29,970 nucleotides of DNA. It comes from a virus. Positions 812 through 19,782 of the stretch are shown piece by piece. The notes under the pieces are model-generated. The model searched no databases. It was not told the DNA's origin and saw only the letters and a program-made list of their open reading frames with translations. Location of the stretch: positions 1 through 29,970 of the IMG/VR virus record IMGVR_UViG_3300032118_002429. One strand, given 5' to 3'. The first letter of the stretch is position 1. Each line of letters begins with the position of its first letter. The translations under genes and the position numbers were made by a program.

Positions 812-1663
812 TCAGCTCGAAAGGCAGCGTGAGACCTCCTCTCGCAGCCACGCCACGGGCACCTCGTCGGGGTCCGTCTTCGGGGGCAGGCGCACCGCGC
901 CGGCCCGCTGCCCCCCGAAGCGCAGCCGCATCGCGAGCATCTCGCCCTCCTCCCACGCGTCCCCGTCCAGGACCACCGCCACGGGCCGGCGCGAGGACTG
1001 CAGGGCCTCGAGCTGGGACCCGCCGACCTTGCCCAGGAGGGCCACGCCGTCCGGCCAGCACCCCGGGCAGAGGGCATCGAGCACCCCCTCCACCACGATG
1101 ACCGGGTCGTCCCCCTCCTCCAGCAGGGCGCGGTGGTTGTAGAGGACCTCACCGCGGGCCATGCCCGCCGGGTAGAGGTAGGGACGCTCGGCCTGGCGGA
1201 CCCAGGAGCGGGCGACCCAGCCGAGCCAGGTCTCCCCGTCGTCGGCCCGGATCGGCACGACCACGCGCCCCCCGTAGCGCCCGGTGGCGCAGGCGCCGAT
1301 GCCCGCCCACGCCCACGTCGCCTCGGGCAGGCCGCGGCGCCGCAGGAACTCCCGCGCCGGCTCGAGACAGGCGGCCCCCGCCCCCGCCGCGGACCAGAGC
1401 GGGGTGAACCCGTCCGGCGCGTCCATCTCGTGCGCGACCACCGCCGGCATCGGCCCCGCGGTCGTGGAGTCGCCGTGGACGCGCCCACCGACCCCGCACT
1501 TAAAGCAGCAGTAGCGACCCGACTCGTGCACGCCGAAGCTCTGGCGCCGGTCGGCCTTGCCGGTACGCTCGACGCAGAACGGGCAGTGCCCCCGCCGCCA
1601 CCCGGTCCCCGACGGCGGGGACCCGGCGATGGCCGCGCGGATGTGGTCGGCCCGGGTCGCCAT
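812..1663 (-). CDS. DNA primase with CHC2-type zinc finger and Toprim domain
   Basis: 283 aa. The ATG (1663-1661) overlaps the helicase stop as TGATG; there is no separate Shine-Dalgarno, so translation is probably coupled. The same frame is open far upstream, but that part lies inside the helicase gene and is a shadow. A zinc-ribbon has Cys27-x2-Cys30 and Cys53-x2-Cys56, as in the CHC2 domain of DnaG and T7 gp4 primases. The Toprim core has Glu192 in VIVVEG and the DxD pair Asp233/Asp235 in VVLDGD, which bind catalytic metal. The protein should make RNA primers for lagging-strand synthesis, working with the helicase encoded immediately upstream. At 283 aa it is a short phage-type primase without a DnaG C-terminal helicase-binding domain, much like the primase half of T7 gp4. 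I am confident of the class. Confidence 0.9.
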   Translation of the reverse strand: MATRADHIRAAIAGSPPSGTGWRRGHCPFCVERTGKADRRQSFGVHESGRYCCFKCGVGGRVHGDSTTAGPMPAVVAHEMDAPDGFTPLWSAAGAGAACLEPAREFLRRRGLPEATWAWAGIGACATGRYGGRVVVPIRADDGETWLGWVARSWVRQAERPYLYPAGMARGEVLYNHRALLEEGDDPVIVVEGVLDALCPGCWPDGVALLGKVGGSQLEALQSSRRPVAVVLDGDAWEEGEMLAMRLRFGGQRAGAVRLPPKTDPDEVPVAWLREEVSRCLSS

Positions 1664-3015
1664 CAGAACGGCACCGGCTCGAGGTTGGCGGCCTGCAGCA
1701 CCGGCACCATGCGCCCGCACTCCCAGTCGTGCGGCAGCGGGCCCACGATGGAGTCCCCCTGCCCGTAGCGGTACTTGCCGACCTTGTAGATGACGCCGTC
1801 CTCCTTCGAGGTGAGGGTGACCACCAGGTCGGCCACGCGGATCTTCGCGACGCTGTCGGCCACGTCCTCCTTCTCGATGAGCGAGGTGCGGTCGGCCTTC
1901 TTCTTCTTCGTCCCCGGCGTCTGCCGGATGTTGCGGGACTGGCACGCGGTCAGCACCCAGAGCGAGTGCTCGTGGGCGAACAGGCGGAACTTCTCGAACA
2001 CGCGCCCGAACGCGGCGGACCCGTTCTCCTCCTTCCGCGCGTCGGCGCGGATCTTGTCGCCGTAGTCGATGACCAGCAGGTCGGGGTAGATCCCCTCCCG
2101 GGCACGGTACAGCTCGACCCAGGAGAACAGGTCCTCGGGCGTCGCGACCCCGGCCGGGAACTCCTGGCACCAGAACCGCCCGAGCCGCGGGAGCAGCGCG
2201 TCGAGCTTCAGCGAGGCCTCCTCCAGGTGGCCGTTGAGGATGCTGTTGATCGGCACCCCGGTGAGGGCCGCCTTGAGCCGCGCCATCACCCACGGGACCG
2301 GCAGCTCCAGGGTCGCGTAGAGGACCGAGCGCCCGAGCAGCAAGGCGTTCGCGCAGACGGTGTTCATCATCATTGACTTCCCACCACCTGTCGAGCTGAT
2401 GACCACGGACTCGGTCCCGCGCGGCGGCCCCCCGCCGAGCTGCATGTCCAGCTCCTGGATCCCGAGCGAGAGCCGCTCGAGGTCATGGATCGAGTCGATG
2501 CTCCGGCGCGCCTCCGCCATCGGGGTCCCGAGCGAGATGTCGACGCGCCCGATCCCCTCCATGCGGTCGAGGCACTCACGCGACCGCTTCGCGTCCCCGG
2601 GCGCGCTGTTGTAGGAGTCCATCAGTCCGACCACCGCCTCGTGGTGCAGGCGCTTCTGGATCGTCGCGCGCACCAGGGCCGCAACCTCGGCCTCGTCGTG
2701 CTCGTCCTCCGCGGCGTCCCGCAGCATCGCGGCCAGCGCCGCCACCTCGTCCGGCGTGACCTGCCCCCGCCCCTGCATCGACCGGACCTGCTGGAGCACC
2801 AGGCCGAGGTTCGAGGGCCCGTGCCCGACCTCCCGGGCGATGGCCTGCGCCGCGAGCAGCGCGAGGCGCACCGCCCCCTGCGTCATGCCGTCTGGCTCCA
2901 GCGCGTGCCCCACCAGCCCGAAGAACCGCTGGCTGGAGCACGACAAGTATGCGACCGAACGCTCGAACGCGGGCGTGAAGTCGTAGGGCTGCGCCGACCG
3001 CTTCTTCTCCGCCAT
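1663..3015 (-). CDS. Replicative DNA helicase, DnaB-like (SF4, RecA fold)
   Basis: 450 aa, ATG 3015-3013 with the strong ribosome binding site GGAGGAGGG, five bases away. Residues 10-140 form a helical N-terminal region like the DnaB N-terminal domain (AVRLALLAAQAIAREV and later helices). A linker follows, then a RecA-type ATPase. Walker A is SSTGGGKS (207-214), the likely catalytic Glu is E237 in YATLE, Walker B is LLVIDYGD with Asp317, and TACQSRN is the later sensor-like motif. The protein should be a hexameric 5'-to-3' helicase that unwinds the replication fork. It lies directly between initiator and primase genes, the expected order for a phage replication operon, and overlaps the primase start by one base. 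No separate loader gene is obvious; the upstream initiator may do this job. Confidence 0.93.
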   Translation of the reverse strand: MAEKKRSAQPYDFTPAFERSVAYLSCSSQRFFGLVGHALEPDGMTQGAVRLALLAAQAIAREVGHGPSNLGLVLQQVRSMQGRGQVTPDEVAALAAMLRDAAEDEHDEAEVAALVRATIQKRLHHEAVVGLMDSYNSAPGDAKRSRECLDRMEGIGRVDISLGTPMAEARRSIDSIHDLERLSLGIQELDMQLGGGPPRGTESVVISSTGGGKSMMMNTVCANALLLGRSVLYATLELPVPWVMARLKAALTGVPINSILNGHLEEASLKLDALLPRLGRFWCQEFPAGVATPEDLFSWVELYRAREGIYPDLLVIDYGDKIRADARKEENGSAAFGRVFEKFRLFAHEHSLWVLTACQSRNIRQTPGTKKKKADRTSLIEKEDVADSVAKIRVADLVVTLTSKEDGVIYKVGKYRYGQGDSIVGPLPHDWECGRMVPVLQAANLEPVPF

Positions 3016-3027
3016 CGATCCCTCCTC

Positions 3028-4587
3028 CTACCAGATCCAGCGACCGCGGCGCACGTCCTCGTCGAGCATCATCTGCTGCTGCTCGACCTCGGCGCGCGCC
3101 TCGGCGACCATCTCGTTGTACGTGTCCCCGGGGAAGAAGTGCGCCACCAGGCGCGCCGCCTCGTCCAGGGTCCTCCCGCGTACGGCCACCGCCAGGGAGC
3201 ACCAGCGGTTCAGGAGCTTCCGGTGCGTGCCCCCGATCGGCAGGTGCCAGCGCGAGTCGTTGGACCCGCACTCGTGCAGGAACCACTCCCACTTCGACTC
3301 CATGCGCCGCGCCGAGAACACCCACGCCATGGTCGGAGGCTTGCGCTCCCCGGCCGCGGTTTGCGCCCAGCAGCGGATCGACCACTGCACCCAGACCGCC
3401 GGGGACACGCCCTCCTCCCGCAGGAACCTTCCCGCCGCGGTCAGCGCGGCGAAGTGCTTCGACCGCGCGACGTCGCCGCGCCGACCGTACTGACCCTCGT
3501 AGGTCGACCGCAGCTCCCCCCAGTAGGCCTCGGCGCACATCGTGGCAGCGCGGAGGTCGGGGGCCTCGTCCGGGATCACGGGCGGCGGGGGCACCGTCGC
3601 GGGCCTGATCACCTCGACGCCCGGGTACGGCGGCATCATCGAGCGACAGCCCCGCGGACCCCCGGCGGCCCGCACGTCGCCGCCCAGCGAGAACCCCAGC
3701 CGGGGGTCGCGCGGCGGACCCTCACCCCCGGTCGGCGCGCAACCCGCGCCCCCTCCGGCCGACCCCGCGGACGACCCGCGCGTCACGGTCGGGGACGAGT
3801 TCCCCGCGGTCGCGGCGAGGACCGGAGGATGCCAGGTCGGGAAGGAGGTCTCGGCTTTTGTTTTTGGGGTGGTTTGGGGTGCCCGAGCAGCGCGGGACGC
3901 GCTCGGGCCTTCTCTTACGCTAGTAAGAGAAGTAGAGCCTTTACGATCGGATAAGGAAGTTGCTATTAGATTGCTCCCGCCTTTGATTTCCACGGGAGGG
4001 CCCGATCCGGCCCGATCCGGCCTGCGGCTCCCGCCTTTGATTTCGCCCTTCCGGGGCCGGCCCGCGCCCGGCCGGCGACCCCCGCGGCCGGCCTGCTTGA
4101 GCCACTGGACCGTGCGCCAGGGCACGGAAACCTCGACGAACGCTACGAAGCCCCAGACCACGCGCACCGGGACCGGGACGTAGGCGTCGCCGATCTGGCG
4201 CTCGTTCCACTCCCGGGCCGGATCCACCAGGCCGGCCCGGCCGAGCCGGGTCATCGCCCGCCCGTACTGCTTGAGGTTGAGCCGGGGCAGGCCGAACCCC
4301 AGCTCGCGGAGCGCCATCACCCCCTCCCAGCACTCCCAGGTCTTGCGGTTGCGGCCGCGCAGCAGGCGCCGGTACAGCTCCCATGCGTTCGGCCCGAGCT
4401 TGCGCCGGAGCAGGTCCAGCGGGACCTGGTGCGACCGGCACCGCCGGCGGTCGACGCGGTCCGGCAGCCAGTCCTCCGACCCGACCCGGTGTACGACCAC
4501 GGGCGGGACGAAGCGCGGCGGGGAGGAGGGGAGTGGTGGGGCTCGGTCGGACGGGGCAGGAGGAGGAAGCGACGACGATGCCAGCAC
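3028..4587 (-). CDS. Replication initiator / replisome organizer (lambda O-like arrangement) with internal origin
   Basis: 519 aa from a GTG at 4587-4585. I prefer it because GGGAGG lies seven bases upstream; the in-frame ATG at 4650 has no ribosome binding site and falls inside an inverted-repeat arm. After a Pro/Ser-rich start, residues about 45-120 read as a winged helix-turn-helix (PNAWELYRRLL, LKQYGRAMTRLGRAGLV). Next is an AT-hook-like basic stretch (GRRPGAGRPRK), then a low-complexity linker where EIKGGS occurs twice because the DNA there carries iterons. Residues about 340-519 are a second helical domain rich in Trp and Arg, perhaps contacting helicase. It sits 12 bases upstream of the DnaB-like gene. 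The DNA-binding N-terminus, origin-bearing linker and C-terminal domain match lambda O in layout only; I claim no homology. Function is inferred from context and layout. Confidence 0.78.
   Translation of the reverse strand: MLASSSLPPPAPSDRAPPLPSSPPRFVPPVVVHRVGSEDWLPDRVDRRRCRSHQVPLDLLRRKLGPNAWELYRRLLRGRNRKTWECWEGVMALRELGFGLPRLNLKQYGRAMTRLGRAGLVDPAREWNERQIGDAYVPVPVRVVWGFVAFVEVSVPWRTVQWLKQAGRGGRRPGAGRPRKGEIKGGSRRPDRAGSGPPVEIKGGSNLIATSLSDRKGSTSLTSVREGPSASRAARAPQTTPKTKAETSFPTWHPPVLAATAGNSSPTVTRGSSAGSAGGGAGCAPTGGEGPPRDPRLGFSLGGDVRAAGGPRGCRSMMPPYPGVEVIRPATVPPPPVIPDEAPDLRAATMCAEAYWGELRSTYEGQYGRRGDVARSKHFAALTAAGRFLREEGVSPAVWVQWSIRCWAQTAAGERKPPTMAWVFSARRMESKWEWFLHECGSNDSRWHLPIGGTHRKLLNRWCSLAVAVRGRTLDEAARLVAHFFPGDTYNEMVAEARAEVEQQQMMLDEDVRRGRWIW
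3881..3908. repeat. Second hairpin beside the origin palindrome
   Basis: Perfect 8-bp arms GCCCGAGC and GCTCGGGC around a 12-base loop. It abuts the 3909-3932 palindrome without a gap, giving two adjacent hairpins inside the coding region. There is no T-run, so it is not a simple terminator. Confidence 0.65.
3909..3932. repeat. Palindrome in the candidate origin
   Basis: Arms of 10 bp (CTTCTCTTAC and GTAAGAGAAG) around the 4-base centre GCTA. It directly adjoins the AT-richer stretch, in the place of the inverted repeat of the lambda origin. Confidence 0.75.
3973..3990. repeat. Iteron copy 2, 18 bp
   Basis: Exact copy of the 18-mer at 4027-4044. Between the two lies a tandem pair of the 10-mer CCCGATCCGG (4001-4010 and 4011-4020). 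The AT-richer stretch begins right beside this copy. Confidence 0.8.
4001..4020. repeat. Tandem 10-bp repeat between the iterons
   Basis: CCCGATCCGG occurs twice head to tail. It could be part of the origin or simply a slippage product in the low-complexity linker of the initiator gene. Confidence 0.6.
4027..4044. repeat. Iteron copy 1, 18 bp
   Basis: Plus-strand sequence GCTCCCGCCTTTGATTTC, identical to the copy at 3973-3990. Starts are 54 bp apart, which keeps the reading frame and nearly five DNA turns. Likely initiator binding site (inference). Confidence 0.8.
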
Positions 4588-4641
4588 GAAAAAACCTCCC
4601 AGCTTCAGCGAGGACGTCCAGGGCGCGCACCGAGGAACCGG

Positions 4642-4721
4642 AAACCACAAGCAGAAGAAAACAGGTCCCGCGGAACCCCAGGCGGCCTCGCTCAGGCCGG
4701 GAGGTTCTCTGCTTGTGGTTT
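4642..4721 (-). other. Structured leader: long inverted repeat with nested hairpins upstream of the initiator
   Basis: Perfect 14-bp arms (AAACCACAAGCAGA at 4642-4655 and its complement at 4708-4721) enclose 52 bases. In the minus-strand transcript the enclosed part can fold further: GAACC pairs with GGTTC, and inside it CGGCCT pairs with AGGCCG around GAGCG. The structure ends about 55 bases before the GTG start of the initiator gene. No T-run follows it in the direction of transcription, so it is not an ordinary terminator. It could be a leader controlling initiator translation, an antitermination site or a processed RNA. The pairing is seen; the function is unknown. Confidence 0.55.
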
Positions 4722-4850: not shown

Positions 4851-5075
4851 CTAGAGACTTCTCCACCCCGGCCCTCGTCCGGTGGGCTGCCGCGCCCAGG
4901 CGACGAGCAGGCGGAAGTCGTGGGTGGGCATGCGGAGCACCACGGCGGCCCCGACGGGGTCGCCCAGCTTCTCGAGCCTCCGCGCCAGGGCGGCCGGGCT
5001 GCTCCGGTGCCTCCTCCCGCCGTGCTGGACGATCTCCAGCAGGCGCGGCATCAAGACGTCGTCGACGTAAGACAT
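4851..5075 (-). CDS. Small protein of unknown function, 74 aa
   Basis: 74 aa, ATG 5075-5073, with a strong GAGGAGGTG ribosome binding site five bases upstream. It overlaps the end of the SF2 helicase gene by 25 bases in another frame, and the ribosome binding site lies inside that gene. A longer open frame exists upstream but is a shadow of the helicase. The protein looks mostly helical and basic, with MPRLLEIVQH, a run of His/Arg around residue 22, and a hydrophobic VGAAVVLRM segment. No family is recognised. It is the last gene before the 263-bp gap that precedes the initiator, so it may be a small replication or regulatory factor. Confidence 0.72.
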   Translation of the reverse strand: MSYVDDVLMPRLLEIVQHGGRRHRSSPAALARRLEKLGDPVGAAVVLRMPTHDFRLLVAWARQPTGRGPGWRSL

Positions 5076-6448
5076 GCTTGCACCTCCTCGACGGTGACGT
5101 GGTAGCCCTCGCGCTCGTAGGCGCGGCGCCGGGCCTTGGAGTGCTTCTCGAGCCAGCGGTGGCCGCGGTCGTCGAAGTCGACGACCTGGAAGGAGTCCTT
5201 CCCGGGCGCGACGCGCATCCCGCGGCCGATGCGCTGAAGGGCGGCAATGATGCTCTTGCCCCCGGTCGCGACGATGACCGCGCGCAGGCCCGGGACGTCG
5301 ACCCCCTCCTGCATGATGACCGACGTGACCAGCACGTCCAGCTCCCCGGCCTCGAGCCGGCGCAGCGCGTCCCGCCGCGCGTCCGTGTCGTCCTCCCCCC
5401 ACACGAACTCGGCGCGGACTCCTTCCTTGAGGAGGCGCGCCAGCAGCAGCTCGCCGTGCCGGATCTGCCCCACGAACACGAGGCACGGCCGCGGGGCCCT
5501 CGCGGCCTCGCGCGCGACCAGGGCGTTGCGCGCGACCGACCGGACCACCTCCTCGCCGTAGACCCCCTGCCATGTCGGCCGGTCGGTGCGGTGCTGCACC
5601 GCGATCATGCGGATGCTCGGACGGGTCAGCACCCCCGCTTTGATGAGCTGCTCGGGCAAGATGCGGTGGATGACGGGCCCGAGTGAGGCCACTGCTAGGG
5701 TGCTGCGGCGGTCGCCGCGCGCGAGCGGGGTGCCGGAGACGCCGATCCGGTAGTAGGCCTCCTTGCACGCCATCGACGCGCGCCAATACGTGGCGCTCGG
5801 CAACGTGTGGGACTCGTCGACCAGGATGCCCTCGAACTGCCGCAGGAACCACTTCACCCGGTCGAGGTCCGCTGGCCGACGCATGGCGGCGGCGATGGTC
5901 TGGAACGTCGCGCAGACCAGGCGCTCCCGCACCTCGTCGGGGATCGGCTGCCCGTCCCCCACCATCTGGGCCGCCTGCCCGGTGCGCAGCGCGTACCGCT
6001 CCGCCACCTGCACCGTCAGCCCGGCCCGGTGCGCGACCAGGAGCCATCGACAGGGGAGGAGCTGCACGAGCCCGATCATCACCTCGCTCTTGCCGCTTCC
6101 CGTTGGATGATGCAGGATGCCGCGCCCACACTCGACCGCCCGCTTGACCGCCTCGAGCTGGTAGTCGCGCAGCCACCCCAGATCGACGGACCAGTCGGGC
6201 TCGCAGGGCCGGACCCGCCGGTCCTCGCGCTCGAAAGGGAAGCCCCGCGCCGCGCAGGCCGCGCGCACTTGCGGGACGTACCCGGTCGGGAACGCGTGGG
6301 TGATGCGCGAGTACATGTGGCGCTTGCCGTCGCCGTAACCCGACCAGTGCGCGCGATCGTCCGCGAACGACAGCAGGTCGTCGAGCCAGGACTCCTCCTC
6401 CGGGTCGGCCTCGACCCGGGTGTAGACGTTGCCAACCTGGAGCCTCAT
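5051..6448 (-). CDS. SF2 DEAD/DEAH-type helicase, UvsW/RAD25-like
   Basis: 465 aa. ATG 6448-6446 overlaps the preceding gene's stop as ATGA. Residues 1-90 form an N-terminal domain rich in charged and aromatic residues, comparable to the small substrate-binding domain before the motor in UvsW-like proteins. The motor follows with a Q-motif-like LRDYQLEAV (93-101), Walker A HPTGSGKS (114-121), DESH (211-214), SGTP (238-241) and the arginine-finger motif QRIGRGMR (405-412), so both RecA lobes are present. Such helicases remodel branched DNA, R-loops and stalled forks, and in T4 UvsW helps switch from origin- to recombination-dependent replication. The location in the replication operon fits. 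The DESH box and full motif set are seen; the substrate is inferred from family. Confidence 0.92.
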   Translation of the reverse strand: MRLQVGNVYTRVEADPEEESWLDDLLSFADDRAHWSGYGDGKRHMYSRITHAFPTGYVPQVRAACAARGFPFEREDRRVRPCEPDWSVDLGWLRDYQLEAVKRAVECGRGILHHPTGSGKSEVMIGLVQLLPCRWLLVAHRAGLTVQVAERYALRTGQAAQMVGDGQPIPDEVRERLVCATFQTIAAAMRRPADLDRVKWFLRQFEGILVDESHTLPSATYWRASMACKEAYYRIGVSGTPLARGDRRSTLAVASLGPVIHRILPEQLIKAGVLTRPSIRMIAVQHRTDRPTWQGVYGEEVVRSVARNALVAREAARAPRPCLVFVGQIRHGELLLARLLKEGVRAEFVWGEDDTDARRDALRRLEAGELDVLVTSVIMQEGVDVPGLRAVIVATGGKSIIAALQRIGRGMRVAPGKDSFQVVDFDDRGHRWLEKHSKARRRAYEREGYHVTVEEVQACLTSTTS

Positions 6449-7289: not shown

Positions 7290-7852
7290 TTCGCCCTCCG
7301 CTTCGAGACGTAGATGCGGCCCCCCGCTTTGGGGACGTTCTCCCGGTCCTGCACCGAGATCGGGATCCCCTCGGCGATGATCTGCGCGGTCCAGGTACGC
7401 CACTGTCTCACCGTCATCGTGCCGATGTCGGCCAGGCAGCGCCACATCCGCGCGCCCTTCTCCTTCACTCCCAGGACCGACCGCATCCGGTCTGTCGAGC
7501 GCGGCGTGTAGCAGGAGAACACCATCAGCTCGAGGCCGCCGCCCAGGCGCCAGGCCGCCTCCTCTTCGGGCGTCAGCGCCCGGGCCAGGACGTCCGCAAC
7601 CGAGATCGCGATGGCGCCGTGGTGGACCTCCCGCGAAGTGCTCCCGCGCAGGCCCTCGGACTGGAGGTCGGTCCAGGCGGCGCCCGGGTCGTCGCGGAGC
7701 GGGCCGACCCCCTCGACCACCTGCCACACCGGGACGCCGTCCGCGCGCTCGCGCGCGCGGTAGCGCGTGGCCTGGTACCGCACGCGGGGACGCGGGGGCG
7801 TCCCCGCGCTCGGGCTGATGAGGGTGCGGACCGCGTAGGCTTCCCGGGTCAC
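7286..7852 (-). CDS. Protein of unknown function, 188 aa
   Basis: 188 aa, GTG 7852-7850, overlapping the preceding stop as GTGA, with GGAGG seven bases upstream inside the previous gene. The first 70 residues look beta-rich, with RVRYQATRYRARERADGVPVWQVVEGVGPLRDD. The middle is helical (VADVLARALTPEEEAAWRLGGG), followed by ELMVFSCYTPRSTDRMRS, and the C-terminus is basic (GGRIYVSKRRAK). No enzyme motif, signal peptide or membrane segment is seen. It lies in a tightly coupled string from the 297-aa gene to the sigma-like gene. I cannot assign a family; the basic tail might point to nucleic-acid binding, but that is weak. Confidence 0.75.
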   Translation of the reverse strand: MTREAYAVRTLISPSAGTPPRPRVRYQATRYRARERADGVPVWQVVEGVGPLRDDPGAAWTDLQSEGLRGSTSREVHHGAIAISVADVLARALTPEEEAAWRLGGGLELMVFSCYTPRSTDRMRSVLGVKEKGARMWRCLADIGTMTVRQWRTWTAQIIAEGIPISVQDRENVPKAGGRIYVSKRRAK

Positions 7853-9577: not shown

Positions 9578-10768
9578 ATGATCCAAGACGCGAGGCTGAT
9601 CGAGAGGCTGATTCGTGCTGCCTACTTCACCCCGTGCGGGGAGCGCGGGTGGGGGCTCCCGTTGGTGCTGTGGGGGCCTCCCGGTTGCGGGAAGTCCACC
9701 CACTTCAGGAAGTTCGCGCGCAGCGTCGGGAAGTTCTACAAGCGGCTGTCCCCCGCCGAAGAAGGGGAGGGAGCTTTCGGTGTGACCCCCGTGCCCCACG
9801 CTGGGCCAGACGGCTCCACCACCCTCTTCCATCCCCCGAGCGAGTGGGTGACCCGGTTGGAGCCCGGCTCGATCCTCTTGATTGACGACATTACCTGCAC
9901 CTCGCAGTACCTCCAGCCCGTCCTGCTCGGGGTGGTACTCGAGAAGGTCATCGGCGATTCGTTCTTGGGGAAGGGCACCCGGGTCTTCGGGGCGGGAAAC
10001 GCCACCGAGGACGTCGGCGGCGGGCAGGACCTCGGCGCGGCGCAGGCGAACCGGATGGGCCACCTCGACGTCGGCTACCCAACTGGGGAGGGCTGGGCCG
10101 ACTGGCTGCTCAGCGACGGCGGCGAGAACGGCCACGGCGAGCAGATCGACGTCGCGGCGGAGGAGCAGCGGGTGATGGCCGCGTGGCCTGCTGCCTACGC
10201 CTGGGCGCGGGGAGCGCTGGCGTCGTTCGCCAAGGCCAAGGCCGCGATGTTCATCAAGCCGGAGGCGGGCAACGACAAGGCGTCGCGCGCCTGGCCGAGC
10301 CCTCGCTCCTGCGAGTACCTCGCGCGCGCCCTCGCCGCCGGCCGCGTGCACGGCCTGTCCGAGGCCGAGACGGACGAGCTGATGACGGCGTTCGTCGGCG
10401 CGGGGCTGGTCGGCGAGCTGCGCGCCCACCTCAACAAGATCGAGCTGCCCGACCCGGCCGAGCTGCTAACCGGGAAGGTCAAGTGGCAGCACGACCCGCA
10501 CCGGCTCGACGTGGCCTGCGCGGTCCTGTCTTCCACCACCGCCTACGTCCTGTCGCAGCCGAACGGGCAGCGCGAGGCCCTGGCGATCGCGCTGTGGGGG
10601 CTCCTCGCCGGCATCGACCGCCCCGTCGACCTGCTCGTCCCGGCCGCGCACCAGCTCGTCAAGCACCAGCTCGCGATGTCGAGCCCGACACTCAAGTCGG
10701 CGGCCGGTCCGGTCCTCGTCAAGCTGCGCCCGGCCCTGGCGGCGGCGGGCGTGAGGTTCGAGTCGTGA
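9578..10768 (+). CDS. MoxR-like AAA+ ATPase
   Basis: 396 aa, ATG at 9578, with GGGAGGAG (9566-9573) four bases upstream. Walker A is GPPGCGKST (33-41), Walker B is LLIDDI (100-105) with Asp-Asp where many AAA+ proteins have Asp-Glu, and a GNATED segment near residue 150 fits the sensor-1 Asn. The second half is helical with an all-alpha lid region. The gene ends in GTGA overlap with the VWA/HExxH gene. MoxR ATPases typically pair with VWA-domain proteins to remodel or load cofactors into target complexes. The CobS subunit of cobaltochelatase is a relative and such phage ATPases are often labelled CobS, but nothing here shows cobalamin synthesis. Family and pairing are clear; the target is unknown. 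Confidence 0.88.
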   Translation: MIQDARLIERLIRAAYFTPCGERGWGLPLVLWGPPGCGKSTHFRKFARSVGKFYKRLSPAEEGEGAFGVTPVPHAGPDGSTTLFHPPSEWVTRLEPGSILLIDDITCTSQYLQPVLLGVVLEKVIGDSFLGKGTRVFGAGNATEDVGGGQDLGAAQANRMGHLDVGYPTGEGWADWLLSDGGENGHGEQIDVAAEEQRVMAAWPAAYAWARGALASFAKAKAAMFIKPEAGNDKASRAWPSPRSCEYLARALAAGRVHGLSEAETDELMTAFVGAGLVGELRAHLNKIELPDPAELLTGKVKWQHDPHRLDVACAVLSSTTAYVLSQPNGQREALAIALWGLLAGIDRPVDLLVPAAHQLVKHQLAMSSPTLKSAAGPVLVKLRPALAAAGVRFES

Positions 10769-12084
10769 GCACCGTCATCGGCTCCGCGGAAGACGTCCTG
10801 GGCGCTGGGCGCCTGGTGGTGCTCCGGCAGCTCCCGTACCTGTACGCGCGCCTCCTCGCCCTGGTCCCCCGGCCGACCCCCGGACTGGGGACCATCGGCG
10901 TCACAAAGCAGATGATCCTGATGTACGACCCCGCCGCGGTCGCGAGGTGGAGCGCCGCGCAGGCCGGCGGCGCGCTCGTGCACGAGATCATGCACCTCGC
11001 GATGGGCCACCACGCGCGCTGCGGGGCGCGCGACCCGCGCACCTACAACGTCGCCGGCGACCTCGCGATCAACCCCGGCGTCCTGGCCTCCGGCCTCCAG
11101 CTCCCGGAGGGCGTGGTGATGCCAGCCGCGCTCGGCCTGCCCTCGGACCTGACCGCCGACGAATACTACGACCTGCTCGCGCAGCGGCAGCCCCAGCCCC
11201 CGCCGCAGCAGCCGGGCGGCGGCGAGCAGGGGGGCGAGGGCGACGAGGAGGAGGGGAACGCGGGCGGGCAACCGGGCGAGGGCAAAGGCGAGGGGAAACC
11301 CGCCGGCCATGGGCACGAGCCCCGGGTCGGCGGCGGCTGGTGCGGGTCCTGCGCCGGCCGGTCGACCCCGGGCGAGCCCGCCCCGGGCGAGGACGTCCCG
11401 GGCGCCAGGTCCGAGGCCGAGGTCGCCCGCGCAGCCCGCGAGATCGCGGAGGCGATCCAGGAGGCGGCCGCCAAGGGCCAGGGCAACGTCCCGGCCGGGT
11501 GGGCGCGCTGGGCGCGGGCCGCGCTGGAGCCCCCGCGGGTCCCCTGGCAGACCGTCCTAGCCCGCGCGGTCCGCGCGGCCTGCGCGCGCCGGCCCGGAGC
11601 GGTCAGCCTCACCTCGACCCGGATGGGGCGCAGGCAGGCCGGGGTGGGGTACGGTCCCGGCCGCCCGGTCCTGCCGGCCCTGTACTCCCCGGTGCCAGAG
11701 GTCGCGGTCGTGGTCGACACGTCGGGGTCGATGGGGCAGGCCCAGCTCGAGGCGGCGATGAGGGAGTGCAGGGGGGTGTTGAAAGCGGTCGGCGCCCGGG
11801 TCCGGTTCCTCGCCGCGGATGCCAGGGTCCACACATGCGAGTGGGTCGAGGACTGGCAGACCGCCGCGAAGCTGCTGAAAGGCGGCGGCGGGACGAGCTT
11901 CGTCCCCGCGTTCGAGAAGCTCGCCGCGTCCCGCCAGCGGCCGAGCGTGGTGGTCTACCTGACCGACGGCTGGGGCACCGCCCCGGCTTGCGAGCCCCCC
12001 TGGACCCGGACGATCTGGGGACTGGTGGGGGACTCGAGCCGGGCGCCCTGCGCCTGGGGCACCCCCGTCCAGATCGATGACTGA
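10765..12084 (+). CDS. VWA-domain protein with N-terminal HExxH metallopeptidase-like domain (DUF2201-type)
   Basis: 439 aa, GTG 10765-10767, overlapping the ATPase stop as GTGA. Upstream open frame is a shadow. The N-terminal domain has HEIMH (73-77), a zinc-metallopeptidase motif, followed by GHH and a later DLAINPG. Residues about 145-215 are a Gly/Glu/Gln/Pro-rich low-complexity linker with a WCGSC pair of cysteines. The C-terminal domain is a von Willebrand A fold with the MIDAS motif DTSGS (Asp318, Ser320, Ser322), a GGTSF threonine motif and TDGWG. This layout matches the putative metallopeptidase/VWA proteins that partner MoxR ATPases. It likely uses the VWA to recruit a target to the ATPase; whether HEIMH is active is unknown. 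Found elsewhere in bacteria and phages, but the phage function is not established. Confidence 0.85.
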   Translation: MSTVIGSAEDVLGAGRLVVLRQLPYLYARLLALVPRPTPGLGTIGVTKQMILMYDPAAVARWSAAQAGGALVHEIMHLAMGHHARCGARDPRTYNVAGDLAINPGVLASGLQLPEGVVMPAALGLPSDLTADEYYDLLAQRQPQPPPQQPGGGEQGGEGDEEEGNAGGQPGEGKGEGKPAGHGHEPRVGGGWCGSCAGRSTPGEPAPGEDVPGARSEAEVARAAREIAEAIQEAAAKGQGNVPAGWARWARAALEPPRVPWQTVLARAVRAACARRPGAVSLTSTRMGRRQAGVGYGPGRPVLPALYSPVPEVAVVVDTSGSMGQAQLEAAMRECRGVLKAVGARVRFLAADARVHTCEWVEDWQTAAKLLKGGGGTSFVPAFEKLAASRQRPSVVVYLTDGWGTAPACEPPWTRTIWGLVGDSSRAPCAWGTPVQIDD

Positions 12085-13721: not shown

Positions 13722-13746
13722 GGGCTACTGTAGCAGACCGTAGCCC
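13722..13746 (-). other. Hairpin at the end of the fibre gene
   Basis: 7-bp arms GGGCTAC (13722-13728) and GTAGCCC (13740-13746) around an 11-base loop. It spans the fibre stop codon. No T-run follows, so it may affect mRNA stability or translation of the next gene rather than terminate transcription. Confidence 0.45.
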
Positions 13747-16700
13747 TGGAGGTCATCTAGGATCTGGTTGAGGGCCTGGAAGCCAGCGAGCATGTCCGTC
13801 CGCAGCGTGTTGAGGTCAGCGACCGCGGCGTAGGGCGTGCCCCCTTGTCCATCGGCGAGGCCCGTGAACGCCGAGGTCGAACTCGGGTTGATGGTGCGGG
13901 TCGCGGTCGCATAGGTCTGCGTGTAGGCCGCCGTCCGGGTCGTGCCCGCGACGCCGAAGAACCCCAGCGTCGTGACGGAGGAGGCGCAGATGTTGACCGC
14001 GCTGGTGATGGTGGCCCCGATGCTGACCGACCCGTTCGTGCCGGTGCCCTGCTTCAGTCCTCCGGTGATCTGCAGGTTTCCGCCGTTCGCGTTGCCGCTC
14101 CCCCCGGAGCCCGCGTAGCCGCCGCGAACGTAGGTTGTGCCCCCATATCCTGGGTCCTGGGCGCCGGCGCCCGGGCCTCCAGTTCCCGCGATGACGTTGA
14201 CGTTCCCGCCCCCAGCACCGATCACGCTGGTGGTCCCCGCTCCTCCCGTGCCGCCGTAGAGGTTGGCTTGGCCGCCATCGCCCCCGGCGAAGGTGCCGAC
14301 GCCGGCGCCCCCGGCGCCTCCCTGGTGATAGAGGTGATCCCCGGTCTTCGTGGACGCCTGGGCCGCAACGGTGATGCCCTTGGTGCTCGAAGCGCCCGCC
14401 GTCGAGGCGGCCCAAGTGATGGTGCTGCCGGCCGTGAAGTTGATCTTCCCGTCGTAGTAGATGCGCAGCGCCTCGGTCGCGCCGTTGTTTCCGACCTGAA
14501 AGATGAGGTCGGAGCCGGTGGTCCCCACCCCGCTCGTGGCGCGCAGCGTCAGCGCGTCGGTGGTGGCGGTCCCGCCGACGAGCACCTGCCCCCCGGCTCG
14601 GCCCGCCAGCAACGCATACTGGAGGTGGTCGTCGGCGGTCAACCCGGTCAGGACGCCATGGGCCGTCGCCACGTAGGTCCCCGACGGCAGGTTGGAGACG
14701 GAGCGGTAGTCCTGCACCTCGTCGTAGGTCGGCGTGCCCCCCTGGTTGTGGTAGATCACGCGGTAGAGGAGCTTCGCCTCCTTGTACGGCAGCGCGCCCA
14801 GCGAGAGGCTCTCGTAGGTGTTGTTGGCGCGCGCGTTGCTGATGTTGGTGTCGACCCGCTGCCCGATGACGACGGCGATGGGCTTGTTGACCGTGTTGAC
14901 CGCGTTCGTGGCGAAAACCCACAGGGCGACGTAGTTGCTCGTGGGCACCGCGGTGAGCGTGGTCCCGTTGTTGTAGCGTAAGCTCGCGCCATAGAGTGCG
15001 GTCTGCGCCGCATCCCACGCGAACGTGGACGATCCGTTGTAGTAGAGCACGTCGCAGGTCGTGTGGTCGGTGTCGCCTCCCCCGAAATTGCTGACGGAGA
15101 GGGTGATGTCCTCGTCCGCGATGTACCCGACCGTGATGGCGAAGGTCGTGTTCGTGATCGATGCGACCGTGAGCCCGGAGATGTAGCGCGCGCCCACCGT
15201 GGTGTGCAGGTAACCATGGGTCGCGCCGTCCATCGTGATCCCGTGCCGCTCCTCGGCGAGGATGCCCTTAGCGGTGCCCGCGTTCCAGTAGACGGTCGCG
15301 ACGATGGGCAACTGGAAACCGGGGAACACGCTGCTCTCGGTCAGGGTCCCGCTGGCATCGTAGTAGATGGTGTGCAGCCCGCTGGTGTCCGCGATCTGGA
15401 TCGACGCCGTCGTCTTGGCGTAGGCGACGCCGTTGACGTAGATGGTGTGGGCCCCCGTGATCGTGAAGGTGCGGGCGGGCCCCGAGTCCGTCCACGAAAG
15501 CGTCGCGACGCGATCGAGGAACCCGGTCGGCTCCTGCTGGTTGGTGAAGATGGTTGGGAGCAGCACGTTGTTCGCGGTGATGACTCCGCTGACGTCGAGC
15601 GCGGTGGCGGGGTCCAAGACGCCGATCCCCACGCGCCCGTTCCGCAGCACGAGGTTCGCGGCGTACCCCATGTTGCGCATCTCGATGTAGCCTGTCGCGT
15701 TCTGGTAGTAGACGAAGGCGTTGCCTTTGTTCGTCGAGTAGGCGCGGTTGAGCATGCGGACGAGCCACGGATTCGAGTCATCGGCAATGATGTCTATGAC
15801 TGAGACATCGCTTGTCTTGCCCCTGATCTCAAAGCGTGCTTCGGGAGTGACATTGACGCCAGTCAAGCCGTCTTTGTCGATGGTCACGCGCGTGGCGGCA
15901 GGGTTGGTCCCGTCTGACGTTTTGAAGTTGATCTGGGCTGGGGTGTAGGTGCCCGCCGTTCCCTGCTGCGCTGTCTGGATGAAAGCCGCCTGCGTAAATG
16001 CGGCACCGCTGTTGCCATAGAACCCCACGGATCCCAGTATCTCCGTGGTCACCGTCGCCACATGTGCCACGGTGTTGCTGTGGCTCTTGCGGAAGTCTAG
16101 TTCGGCATCCCAAGTGGGATCGGCAGCGTAGCAATCGGACAGGAAGGTATTGTAGTCGTTTGCCTTGACGCTATGGATTCTCGACGCCGCGCTGGCGGTG
16201 CCGATACCTATCATGTTATTGTACAAATAGAGGAGCTGAGTTCCTGCGCCGTCAGAGATCGCAGTCACACCTCCACCCTGGGCGTTGATATATAGATTTC
16301 CTGGAGCTACTACTGAACCTGTACCGGCGCCGACGGTGAGCACCCCCGAGGAGGCCATCGTCAGGGCGTTGGCGTACGCGCCTGAGTCGATCCGGCTCTG
16401 CAGCGTATACGTCGAGGCCCCCGCGTTGGAGGTCACGTCGACGAACTGCCGCCAGTCGGCGTTGTGCCCGCCCGTGCCGCCCGAGTCGAAGCTGGTGCCG
16501 CGCAACAAGAGGTTGTGGCTGTCGCGCGTTCCGTCGGAGCCCGGCTGCGTCATGTCGAGGATCAGGGCGTCGGCCGGGGTCGTGAATGCCGCGCCCACGT
16601 AGACGCACCCGGTGCCCTCGATGATCAGGATGCGGTTCTGCGTGGTGCCGCTGCCGCTGTAGGCGTAGATGTCAACGGCGTTGTTGGTGCTCGACCCAAC

Positions 16701-18437
16701 GTTGTGCCGCGTGCGGATAGAGTGCAGGTAGTCCGCGGTGCCGTCGTACCCGAAGCGGATCTGGGAGCCAGCGGTCCCGGTTCCCGCGTTCCCCGAGCGC
16801 AGGGTCAGGCTGCTGGGACTGCCGCTCGCGGCCCCAGTCACGTCCAGGGCGGTGGTCGGTGCGGCAACGCCCACCCCCACCTTGCCGTCGGCCTTGAGCC
16901 ACAGCATGTTGGGAGCGGTGGTGTTGTAGACGTTGTAGTCGGCCGCGTAGGCGTTGGTGGCGAACTTGTTGCCGGTCGCGTCCCAGAAGATCGCCGCTTT
17001 CTCGACTCCCGCGTTGTGGAAGCTGATGAAGGCGTTGTAGGACCCGCTCGCGTCCGCCCTGAATCCGGTGTAGCTCGTGGTGCTGCGCGAATAGACGATG
17101 CCCTGCACCGTCAACAGGCTGCCCGACTCGGGGCTCGAAGACCCGATGCTCACCTTCCCGTCGGTCTGCGCGCGCATCATCTCGACGTAGCCGCCGGCGC
17201 CGATCCGCGAGTAGTAGACAAGGCTCCCCGAAGGGGACGCCCCGGCGACCGTCTGGAGCTGGGTCGCGACCTCGACGAGCGTGCTGACCCCTCCCGCTCC
17301 CACCGTCCAGGCGTATCCCTGCTGGGACAGCATGGGCGCGTGCTGGAGCTGCGCCGCGTTGGTCGCCGCCGTGGGGTTCTGCACAAGCACGCCGACGCTC
17401 TGCGTGGTGGTGACCGACTCCATCTGGAGCAGTGCGGCGTAGGCGTTCGTGGCGGTGCTGCGCGATTGCAATCCCGTCCCACCGAGGCCCGCGCTGACGT
17501 AGATCGAGGTGGTGTAGTTGTCTGACGTGATCGATAGTCGACCCGTGCTGCTCAGGGTCAACATGCTCGCGTAGGAGGCCCCGTCGACGCGCTGCTGCAG
17601 GTGATAGGTCGACGCCCCCGCGCTGGAGGTCACGTCGACAAACTGCCGCCAGTCGGCGTTGTGGCCGCCCGTGTCATAGGAGGTGCCCCGGATGACGAAG
17701 CCGTGGGAGTCGCGCGTGCCCGCGCCCGTCGGCTGCGCAATGAGGAGCTGGAGCGCGTCAGCTTGGGTGGTGAGCGCGCCCCCGACCTTCAAGACCTTGC
17801 CGGAGTCGTCCCAGAACAGGTTCCCGTTGTCCTGCCCGTAGACGCCGCTGGCGCCCGCGAAGACCACCGAGCCCGCCGTGAACGCGGTCCCCGTCCCGGT
17901 CCCGCCGTAGGTCACGCCGAGCACCCCGCCCCCGCCCGAGGTGGTCAGGTAGCCCGAGGCGTCGGTGAACACCATCGACGAGGGGGAGAGCCCGGCGAGC
18001 TTGACCCGGCCGTCGCCGCGGACCGCGAGCCAGTCGTCGATCCCGCCGTAGCTCTGCACTGCGAACAGGTTCTCGTCCGCGCCGATGGACGGGCTCGCGT
18101 TGCGAATGAGCACGCCCTTCCGCGTCGCGTCGAGCACGATGGTCGCGGGGTAGGCCCCCGCCGAGTAAGCGTCCTGCAGGTCGATCCCGGTGAGGGCGGT
18201 GGTCAGGCAGACCCAGGTGATGGGGCTGTAGTCGGAGAGCATCCAGACCGTGTTGTCGCTCTCCTGGTAAGCAATGCGCCCCACGTCGGCCTCGGTGAAC
18301 CCGGTCGCCGCCAGACGCGCCTCCTCGTCGACGTAGATGATGGCGTAAGCGGAGAAGTGCGTCTCCAGGTCGAGGACGCGCGTCAGCGCGAGGTCGGCCT
18401 TGTACCAAGCATCGACCCAATTGGTGGGGCTGGACAT
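13725..18437 (-). CDS. Long tail fibre / receptor-binding protein, 1570 aa
   Basis: 1570 aa, ATG 18437, with GGAGGAG upstream. The N-terminus (about 1-130) is non-repetitive, probably the attachment part. The shaft holds repeated Gly-Gly-Thr, Ser/Thr and Asn-rich strands and several copies of the fibre motif vGIGxxxPxxxLdVxG (for example VGVGVAAPTTALDVTG and VGIGVLDPATALDVSG). Two blocks of about 75 residues, near 225-300 and 621-697, are near copies sharing HNADWRQFVDVTS. Near residues 1380-1500 is a Gly-rich stretch, and the last 30 residues (LRTDMLAGFQALNQILDDLQG) look like a trimer coiled coil. No S74 chaperone motif is seen. The protein should bind the host surface at the tail. Base composition in 15780-16330 is visibly lower in GC than the flanks. 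Confidence 0.9.
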   Translation of the reverse strand: MSSPTNWVDAWYKADLALTRVLDLETHFSAYAIIYVDEEARLAATGFTEADVGRIAYQESDNTVWMLSDYSPITWVCLTTALTGIDLQDAYSAGAYPATIVLDATRKGVLIRNASPSIGADENLFAVQSYGGIDDWLAVRGDGRVKLAGLSPSSMVFTDASGYLTTSGGGGVLGVTYGGTGTGTAFTAGSVVFAGASGVYGQDNGNLFWDDSGKVLKVGGALTTQADALQLLIAQPTGAGTRDSHGFVIRGTSYDTGGHNADWRQFVDVTSSAGASTYHLQQRVDGASYASMLTLSSTGRLSITSDNYTTSIYVSAGLGGTGLQSRSTATNAYAALLQMESVTTTQSVGVLVQNPTAATNAAQLQHAPMLSQQGYAWTVGAGGVSTLVEVATQLQTVAGASPSGSLVYYSRIGAGGYVEMMRAQTDGKVSIGSSSPESGSLLTVQGIVYSRSTTSYTGFRADASGSYNAFISFHNAGVEKAAIFWDATGNKFATNAYAADYNVYNTTAPNMLWLKADGKVGVGVAAPTTALDVTGAASGSPSSLTLRSGNAGTGTAGSQIRFGYDGTADYLHSIRTRHNVGSSTNNAVDIYAYSGSGTTQNRILIIEGTGCVYVGAAFTTPADALILDMTQPGSDGTRDSHNLLLRGTSFDSGGTGGHNADWRQFVDVTSNAGASTYTLQSRIDSGAYANALTMASSGVLTVGAGTGSVVAPGNLYINAQGGGVTAISDGAGTQLLYLYNNMIGIGTASAASRIHSVKANDYNTFLSDCYAADPTWDAELDFRKSHSNTVAHVATVTTEILGSVGFYGNSGAAFTQAAFIQTAQQGTAGTYTPAQINFKTSDGTNPAATRVTIDKDGLTGVNVTPEARFEIRGKTSDVSVIDIIADDSNPWLVRMLNRAYSTNKGNAFVYYQNATGYIEMRNMGYAANLVLRNGRVGIGVLDPATALDVSGVITANNVLLPTIFTNQQEPTGFLDRVATLSWTDSGPARTFTITGAHTIYVNGVAYAKTTASIQIADTSGLHTIYYDASGTLTESSVFPGFQLPIVATVYWNAGTAKGILAEERHGITMDGATHGYLHTTVGARYISGLTVASITNTTFAITVGYIADEDITLSVSNFGGGDTDHTTCDVLYYNGSSTFAWDAAQTALYGASLRYNNGTTLTAVPTSNYVALWVFATNAVNTVNKPIAVVIGQRVDTNISNARANNTYESLSLGALPYKEAKLLYRVIYHNQGGTPTYDEVQDYRSVSNLPSGTYVATAHGVLTGLTADDHLQYALLAGRAGGQVLVGGTATTDALTLRATSGVGTTGSDLIFQVGNNGATEALRIYYDGKINFTAGSTITWAASTAGASSTKGITVAAQASTKTGDHLYHQGGAGGAGVGTFAGGDGGQANLYGGTGGAGTTSVIGAGGGNVNVIAGTGGPGAGAQDPGYGGTTYVRGGYAGSGGSGNANGGNLQITGGLKQGTGTNGSVSIGATITSAVNICASSVTTLGFFGVAGTTRTAAYTQTYATATRTINPSSTSAFTGLADGQGGTPYAAVADLNTLRTDMLAGFQALNQILDDLQGYGLLQ

Positions 18438-18496: not shown

Positions 18497-19780
18497 CTAG
18501 AACACCAGCCGCCGGGTCCCGATGGTGCTCACGATGAGGACCTTCTGCCCGACCGTCGGCGTGAACGGCAGCGGTGAGTAAGTGTAGAGCGCGCCGTTGG
18601 TGTTGGTGAAACGGTCGATGTTCCGCGCGACCGATGTGCCGCCGGGCTCACGGACGACCATGATCATGTTGTTGAAGTAGTCGTTCGCTTGAGTGAGTGC
18701 CGTGCGGACCTGGGTCGAGGTGGAACCAGAGGCCACGGTGGTCTCCGTCAGCGCCTGCGCCGCGATCTGGTTCATGGCGTACCCGAAGGTCGATGCCGTC
18801 TGGTGCTTGCTCAGCTCTCGATTCCAGATAGCGGCAGGCAGGGTGGCGTCGGCCGTGATCGTCAAACCCGACCCCAGGTCTACCCAGTAGCCGGTGCCAC
18901 CAACCCGGAAGTCCCCCGCCGTGTTCGATCCCTGTACCAGGATGAACCCGGTGAAGGAGATGTTGGTCGTGCCGCCGGTCTGCCCCGCGAGGGAGATGGC
19001 CCCCTGGACGTTGGAGAGGTTGGTCCCAGATGTCCCATTGACGTTCACGGTAGGAAGAACCGTCACCTCCGGCGTGACGTTCACGAACGTGGCTTGCCCA
19101 CCAAGCAATTGAGTGATGTTGCCGGCGAGGGCGATGTCCGTGTAGTGACCCTGGTACTGGGTCAGGGCCGTCAACCGGCAGCAATGGCAGGTCACGAACC
19201 CGTTCTGCTGCCCCGTCAAAGTGAAGTGATCGAAGTGGGAGTTGGTCACGTCGCAGTTGTTCATCGTCAACGTAGACAGGAAAGCATTCTCCGGCTGCGC
19301 CAGGAACCTCCACCTGACGTGAGGGGTGCCAGAGGGGAGGGTCAGGTTGCCGCGGATGACGTAGGTCGAGTACCCGTACCGGTTGGCAATCGTCCTCGCG
19401 TCGGCGATGTTGTCCACCGGCTTGAAGGGCGCGCCTATCGGGTACGCGGTGCCCGCGAAACCCCCGCCCGTGGTGTCGATGTGGACCGCATCGCTCGTGA
19501 ACGCCTTCTCGTCGTCGATCCAGTTGAACTCGCCATAGTTCTTCTGGAGTGTCCCCGTGAACCTGTAGATGTAGGTGTTCTTGCCCGAGGTCGGCGGGGT
19601 CGTCATCGCCACCGTGTAGCGGTAGATCCCCGTACCGGCGATCTCAGTGCAGGCAGCCGAGCTGAGCGCCACCGAAGCCCCGGTGCCCTTGTTCCAGATC
19701 GCGCAAGTGACCGTGTCCCCCGTCTCGAGGACCTCCGAGAGCACCGGGGTCTGGTCTAGCGTATAGATGGTCGCCGACAT
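18497..19780 (-). CDS. Beta-helix-type tail protein, 427 aa
   Basis: 427 aa, ATG 19780-19778, with GAGGG six bases upstream. The open frame further upstream lies in the neighbour. After an N-terminal beta domain (TYTLDQTPVLSEVLE-like strands) comes GGGFAGTAYPIGAPFKP with DNIADARTIANRYG, a motif I recognise from phage tail and baseplate-associated proteins that lead into a right-handed beta-helix. The following 150 residues, rich in Thr, Asn and Gly, would form the helix. The C-terminal part has two helices (YAMNQIAAQALTE, VRTALTQANDYFNNM) and a strand-rich end. Likely a structural or receptor-contact component of the tail. Its gene lies between the 461-aa gene and the long fibre, with a 59-bp gap to the latter. 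Confidence 0.78.
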   Translation of the reverse strand: MSATIYTLDQTPVLSEVLETGDTVTCAIWNKGTGASVALSSAACTEIAGTGIYRYTVAMTTPPTSGKNTYIYRFTGTLQKNYGEFNWIDDEKAFTSDAVHIDTTGGGFAGTAYPIGAPFKPVDNIADARTIANRYGYSTYVIRGNLTLPSGTPHVRWRFLAQPENAFLSTLTMNNCDVTNSHFDHFTLTGQQNGFVTCHCCRLTALTQYQGHYTDIALAGNITQLLGGQATFVNVTPEVTVLPTVNVNGTSGTNLSNVQGAISLAGQTGGTTNISFTGFILVQGSNTAGDFRVGGTGYWVDLGSGLTITADATLPAAIWNRELSKHQTASTFGYAMNQIAAQALTETTVASGSTSTQVRTALTQANDYFNNMIMVVREPGGTSVARNIDRFTNTNGALYTYSPLPFTPTVGQKVLIVSTIGTRRLVF

Positions 19781-19782
19781 GG

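Follow-up and report, generated by a model that had tools for sequence, protein, structure and literature searches.

What is the function of the dense cluster of repeats and palindromes at 3853–4044 of this phage DNA, buried as it is within a protein-coding gene? The sequence is IMG/VR record IMGVR_UViG_3300032118_002429, a single contig that is a fragment of a phage genome; the whole stretch of 29,970 bases is termed the window below. Its GC content is about 70–72%, and it carries genes for helicase, primase, tail, baseplate and lysis proteins. An earlier note on this DNA had claimed that an origin is embedded in the initiator gene. Our analysis supports that claim on three grounds, these being the conserved layout of the site, the constraint that acts upon its DNA and its gene context, and from these sequence comparisons we consider it very probable that 3853–4044 is a phage replication origin located inside the gene of its own initiator.

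The putative replication initiator gene (3028–4587, minus strand) belongs to a compact replication module. In the coding direction the order in the window is a UvsW-like helicase (5051–6448, minus strand; phrog_16, E 1e-68), which is the upstream neighbor of the initiator in the conserved module, then the initiator, a DnaB-like replicative helicase (1663–3015, minus strand; phrog_19, E 2.7e-36; DnaB_C) and a primase with zinc ribbon and Toprim domains (812–1660, minus strand; phrog_47, E 1e-23). The start of the primase is taken from the open frame; the protein contains conserved Cys residues and the Toprim motifs EG..D and DGD. The open frame of the initiator ends at 3028, and the first TTG of that frame is at 4650. 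A Shine–Dalgarno sequence GGGAGG at 4595–4600 is placed seven bases ahead of the GTG at 4587, so that translation likely starts at this GTG rather than at TTG 4650, and the protein is most likely 519 aa in length, predicted to comprise a winged-helix N domain, a disordered linker and an all-helical C domain. The leader of the gene (4593–4721, minus strand) has structure of its own, in the form of two interleaved inverted repeats. One has perfect 14-bp arms at 4642–4655 and 4708–4721; the other has imperfect 31-bp arms at 4593–4623 and 4676–4706, and pairs the Shine–Dalgarno GGGAGG with CCTCCC. The RNA fold of the leader has z = −3.4, and it looks like a translation switch or a pseudoknot.

All the elements that the note had described, from the two exact direct repeats to the second hairpin, are present in the sequence. 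Along the coding strand they are arranged in the order iteron 1, tandem 10-mer, iteron 2, AT-rich 40 bp, hairpin 1, hairpin 2 and a C/A-rich tract. Iteron 1 (4027–4044, minus strand) is the 18-bp sequence GAAATCAAAGGCGGGAGC, with a TCAA core that is common to relatives, and iteron 2 (3973–3990, minus strand) is identical to it. The two are 54 bp apart start to start, with 36 bp between them, and within this interval lies the tandem 10-mer (3999–4018), which is specific to the window and perhaps represents degenerate iterons. Apart from the 18-mer and the 10-mer array, the window has no repeats of at least 14 bp at 10–130 bp spacing. The 40 bp that follow (3933–3972), the presumed DNA unwinding element, stand out as had been stated; they are 62.5% AT compared with 28% for the gene, a content practically unequaled by other 40-bp segments in the first 9 kb. 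Hairpin 1 (3909–3932) is a palindrome with perfect 10-bp arms and a 4-nt loop, which is TAGC on the coding strand and GCTA, of the GNNA type, on the template strand. Only one other perfect hairpin with arms of at least 9 bp and a loop of 3–4 nt exists in the whole window. The strongest perfect hairpin in the window lies at 7783–7808; its arms are GC-rich and 11 bp long, and its loop has 4 nt. Hairpin 2 (3881–3908) has 8-bp arms, GCCCGAGC/GCTCGGGC, and a 12-nt loop, and abuts hairpin 1 exactly. The C/A-rich asymmetric tract past the hairpins occupies 3853–3880 (minus strand). The single strand of the site has a folding z of −3.2, and a search of Rfam gave nothing credible.

Is this arrangement peculiar to a single phage? 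No match was given by single-sequence searches of viral contigs with the initiator or the helicase, by the iteron pair used as a DNA pattern against viral contigs, by megablast of the window against phages or by tblastn of the window initiator against phage records, and the initiator has no family match in Pfam or PHROG. The UvsW-like helicase was aligned with its Herelleviridae counterparts, and a scan of IMG/VR viral contigs using this alignment identified 80 relatives, at identities of up to 51%; further relatives came from primase and helicase alignments made within the clade. Searching with an HMM built on the C domain of the initiator gave 67 distinct initiator genes, most of them just upstream of DnaB. 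These comprise 45 that are full length (at least 360 aa), 19 that are short (about 200–320 aa) and 3 short ones cut by a contig end. The relatives mostly keep the order UvsW-like helicase, initiator, DnaB-like helicase, primase. Of the relatives tested, 15/15 encode a family A DNA polymerase of their own, and thus the replication system appears largely self-sufficient. A search of 84,980 bacterial and archaeal genomes with one primase alignment found no relatives, which hints that the phages of this group are virulent.

The layout proves to be shared. Absence of the repeats from close relatives would have spoken against an origin; in the event the repeats, the AT-rich spacer and the palindrome all recur in the same order within the linker, in many relatives that are 35–51% identical in the neighboring helicase. 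Exact direct repeats (at least 14 bp, 10–130 bp spacing) are found in 24 of the 45 full-length initiator genes (window included) compared with 4 of 185 control genes (p 2e-16), and strong hairpins (perfect, arms of at least 9) in 23/45 compared with 7/185 (p 1.5e-13), where the genes for helicase, DnaB and primase at these loci serve as controls, and effects peculiar to disordered linkers might therefore contribute to the differences. About half of the full-length relatives lack either repeats or hairpins when these are defined so strictly. The sequence of the iterons differs between phages, with a common TCAA core that usually takes the form A(A/T)TCAA(A/G) followed by a free half. The layout is thus kept, while the linker protein and the sequence of the repeats both diverge.

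The spacing of the elements is also constrained. Iteron cores have a density of 8.65 per kb within the 200 bp that precede the hairpin, compared with 0.81 per kb elsewhere in the same genes, and hairpin 1 begins a median of 34 bp past the end of the last iteron (interquartile 29–39). The spacer in 26 relatives has a mean of 57% AT compared with 35% for the gene, and is nowhere AT-poorer than the gene. Selection of the 26 used for the spacer and core figures involved a rule for the first base of the loop; hairpin counts within that set are therefore not independent, and the unbiased count is that of the census of 45 genes. When both strands of all relatives were searched for a combined motif of two like iterons and a hairpin there were 12 matches, 11 of which were in the initiator gene, compared with 0 in block-shuffled sequence. 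The second hairpin, which the note had flagged as having no known counterpart in lambda, recurs as well. A second, mostly GC-rich hairpin lies no more than eight bases beyond the first in 16/34 genes, where 2.2 are expected from random places in the same genes (200 trials, sd 1.5, largest 8). No clear counterpart of the tandem 10-mer was seen in the relatives, and for that reason it was dropped as a conserved part of the origin.

The whole element is held within the disordered linker of the initiator. AlphaFold2 provided with 38 sequences gave confident domains, where the single sequence gave a pLDDT of 38. The predicted winged-helix DNA-binding domain spans residues 22–136 (4093–4437, minus strand) with a pLDDT mostly of 80–95; the linker (3661–4089, minus strand) has a pLDDT below 50 at residues 171–280 and low from about 150; and the conserved helical C domain (3046–3633, minus strand) has a pLDDT of about 95. 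In VIA the N part best matches proteins of the winged-helix type, a plasmid Rep–DNA complex among them, at Z of about 5–6, which we take as support for the type of fold only. HTH_36 was found in two homologs (L174 and L175). Searches of PDB and BFVD with Foldseek yielded no significant match, nor anything clear for the C domain, which is without a recognized fold.

Presence of the iterons follows that of the N domain. The short initiators lack the N domain and the repeats alike; exact direct repeats are present in 0/19 of them, and strong hairpins in 3/19. A split case is provided by L157:4293–6262, where the N and C domains are encoded in two overlapping frames, through either a real split or a sequencing frameshift. 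L162:4943–6574 has, in place of this N domain, one of PHROG 1701 (DnaD-like loader) type, and the tandem repeat in the gene is a different one, CATCGAAGGGG. Thus the repeats are missing with the N domain in the short initiators and altered with it in L162, which ties the iterons to this domain. Iteron similarity and winged-helix similarity showed no correlation over 28 phages (Mantel r about 0), so that recognition of the iterons by the N domain draws no support from co-variation. At the short-initiator loci (L032, L022, L035, L030, L027, L044, L047 and others) the gene before DnaB encodes the C domain alone, a protein that may be a stand-alone helicase loader. Within the flanks examined at such loci there is neither winged-helix domain nor iterons, and a search for the site found none; the origin there must lie elsewhere.

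Iterons bound by a winged-helix protein are often regulatory too, and the site might be an operator or partition-like site at which the initiator binds its own gene for repression or for DNA segregation, with replication starting elsewhere. The behavior of GC skew would agree with this. Proposed earlier as a marker of the origin, cumulative skew did not lend support; there is no switch at 3.9 kb, and the minimum is near 7–8.5 kb in a record that is only a fragment. Yet the AT-rich spacer and paired hairpins beside the iterons are better suited to an origin, as are the immediately adjacent genes for helicase and primase, and an origin fits better with the absence of the site where the winged-helix domain is missing. 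We therefore judge a purely regulatory or segregational role improbable, and retain the origin as the interpretation of 3853–4044.

The loops of the hairpins show a strand bias. The coding-strand loops of the 23 best hairpins are TTC in 10, TAC in 4 and TAAA in 2, the rest being TAGC, TATC, TCT and others. Read on the template strand, 16/23 are GNA or GNNA loops, compared with 0/23 on the coding strand. The template loop in the window is C-GCTA-G, and those of the relatives are mostly C-GAA-G and C-GTA-G, these being GNA or GNNA loops closed by a C:G pair. The excess of this loop type over control hairpins (16/23 compared with 2/7, p 0.07) is not significant alone; the argument rests on the strand bias together with the enrichment of hairpins. 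DNA minihairpins that have GNA or GNNA loops and G-C pairs are extraordinarily stable (PMC4686876). Extrusion of the promoter hairpins of phage N4 depends on the 5′ G, the 3′ A and the C:G closing pair, and the template-strand loop is the structured one (PMC4496689). The present hairpins resemble those of N4 in being short DNA hairpins with a template-strand loop of just this kind, and differ in that the N4 hairpins are promoters for the virion RNA polymerase; a search for a single-subunit RNA polymerase in 15 relatives found none, and the controls of the same search were also silent. We tentatively suggest that the hairpin may be a structural start signal. Extruded by supercoiling, with its GNA or GNNA loop on one defined strand and paired with a second hairpin, it might be recognized through its structure, whether by the helicase loader, by the primase of the phage or by an RNA polymerase, and so set the place or direction of first synthesis. 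If so, it would be a signal without known precedent in lambda or SPP1.

The region that holds the hairpins is transcribed, and they could form in RNA; the initiator gene has another structured element in its upstream leader. The repeats and hairpins might accordingly act in the initiator mRNA, in pausing, processing or translation feedback, and have no part in an origin. A role in the mRNA leaves unexplained the iterons and AT-rich spacer held at a near-constant distance, and the GNA/GNNA signature is found on the template DNA strand and not at all on the coding strand. Moreover, we know of no stable RNA loop that matches loops such as TAC. Action at the level of the mRNA is on these grounds quite unlikely, and the elements are better understood as parts of a DNA origin.

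Selection for DNA function should also be visible in the codons, and the proposal that such function dictates codon choice here is supported. The codons at 3910–3999 have a GC3 of 0.33, where the rest of the gene has about 0.9–1.0 and the neighboring replication genes 0.92–0.97. GAA and AAA, which are used in both 18-mers, make up 6–7% of their synonymous sets elsewhere, and the probability of obtaining the 18-mer DNA once, given the peptide, is P = 0.0002. Two tail-gene stretches, 16238–16328 and about 19780–19876, have GC3 values as low as 0.33–0.40, like that of the origin segment, so that the low GC3 of the origin is alone no proof; these stretches are possibly foreign or likewise constrained DNA. 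In the relatives the iteron spacings within one gene are 21–24, 28, 37, 44, 47 or 49 bp. Many of the repeat spacings (22, 23, 28, 37, 44, 47, 49 bp) are not multiples of three, and hence the same repeat is often read in different frames within one gene; similarly, the hairpin loops begin at all three codon positions. The combination of rare codons with frame-independent repeats and hairpins points to selection acting on the element at the level of DNA. That the repeats are protein-driven, the by-product of a low-complexity linker that repeats the basic peptide EIKGGS, is scarcely credible, for while the linker is disordered and the two iterons of the window are read in one frame as EIKGGS, each of them contains rare codons, the spacings in relatives lead the same DNA to encode different peptides and the palindromes occur in all three frames.

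How might the elements of the proposed origin, with their conserved order and spacing, frame-independent constraint, strand-biased loops, link to the winged-helix domain and gene context, be put to use? By analogy with lambda and SPP1, the winged-helix domain would bind the two TCAA-core iterons, and this binding in supercoiled DNA would open the 40-bp AT-rich stretch. By analogy with N4, the adjacent palindrome would be extruded as a hairpin with its GNA/GNNA-type loop on the template strand. Hairpins 1 and 2 together would mark the edge of the bubble and present a structured single strand. Recruitment of the helicase is again modeled on lambda and SPP1: the C domain may contact or load the DnaB-like helicase of the phage, after which the phage-encoded primase would start synthesis.

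In its class of function the site would be an in-gene phage origin as in lambda and SPP1, an assignment that implies descent from neither. Direct-repeat iterons are found inside the initiator gene, AT-rich DNA adjoins them, and the gene, for a predicted DNA-binding protein of winged-helix type, stands beside those for a DnaB-like helicase and a primase. The iterons of lambda are 18–19 bp in length, several with TCAAAA, and a palindrome lies beyond its AT-rich tract. Iterons followed by an AT-rich tract lie in the middle of the lambda initiator gene O (PMC7466680), and the window likewise has iterons and then an AT-rich tract within its initiator gene. In contrast, the lambda iterons are four imperfect inverted repeats, whereas the two in the window are non-palindromic; GAAATCAAAGGCGGGAGC is without internal symmetry by inspection, and in the relatives a fixed TCAA half is joined to a free half. 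Lambda borrows the host DnaB and DnaG through P, whereas the window phage encodes helicase and primase, its relatives encode their own DNA polymerase and the gene order is like that of Herelleviridae. We know of no tandem hairpin pair with GNA loops in lambda. No Pfam, PHROG or tblastn match links the window protein to lambda O, although the two may share a remote winged-helix descent. The description of the locus as lambda-like thus stands for the layout and presumed working; it is not supported for descent, given the lack of a Pfam or PHROG link to O and the non-palindromic iterons.

The oriL of Bacillus phage SPP1, in gene 38, has direct repeats and an AT-rich unwinding element inside the initiator gene, with a phage DnaB-type helicase, and staphylococcal phage 80alpha is a probable counterpart with its origin in the initiator gene (PMC6316719, PMC5499656). 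The window shares with SPP1 the direct repeats and AT-rich element in the initiator gene and the phage-encoded DnaB-type helicase. SPP1 differs in having a separate loader, gp39, and in using the host primase, and a conserved hairpin pair is not described for it in the available parts of these sources.

By gene order the closest module is that of Herelleviridae, which runs helicase, ‘HTH DNA binding protein’ of about 540 aa, DnaB-like, SbcD (SbcCD-like), exonuclease, primase. The order is the same apart from the inserted genes, and the protein is similar in size and domain layout; the UvsW-like helicases are about 31% identical and the DnaB proteins about 20%. Comparison of the initiator with the Herelleviridae winged-helix protein using hhalign gave a weak match, with E of about 0.006 for the N domain and 0.05–0.08 for the C domain, and the two may be homologous. 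The 11 Herelleviridae genes examined contain no such repeat or hairpin, and we found no literature on origins of such kind in this family.

Two things are new here, namely that a pair of hairpins with strand-biased GNA/GNNA loops recurs, and that it does so across a broad group of phages. TCAA iterons, an AT-rich spacer of about 34 bp, a GNA-loop hairpin and a second hairpin form a signature by which the presumed origin can be recognized in these diverse uncultivated phages, the initiators of which have no family match. The role of origin palindromes is an unsettled question, and it is made testable by a loop signature that is the one needed for extrusion of the N4 promoters. Dozens of naturally varied iteron sets, together with their matching initiators, would also allow recognition by the winged helix to be worked out.

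Two further features of the window lie outside the replication module. The long tail gene (13725–18437) contains 16- and 23-bp copies at 16427–16466 and 17624–17663, offset by 1197 bp in each case, which suggests that part of the gene has been duplicated internally. Judged by eye, the principal block of plus-strand coding, at 9578–12084, comprises an AAA ATPase-like frame and, after it, one that has a VWA-like stretch.
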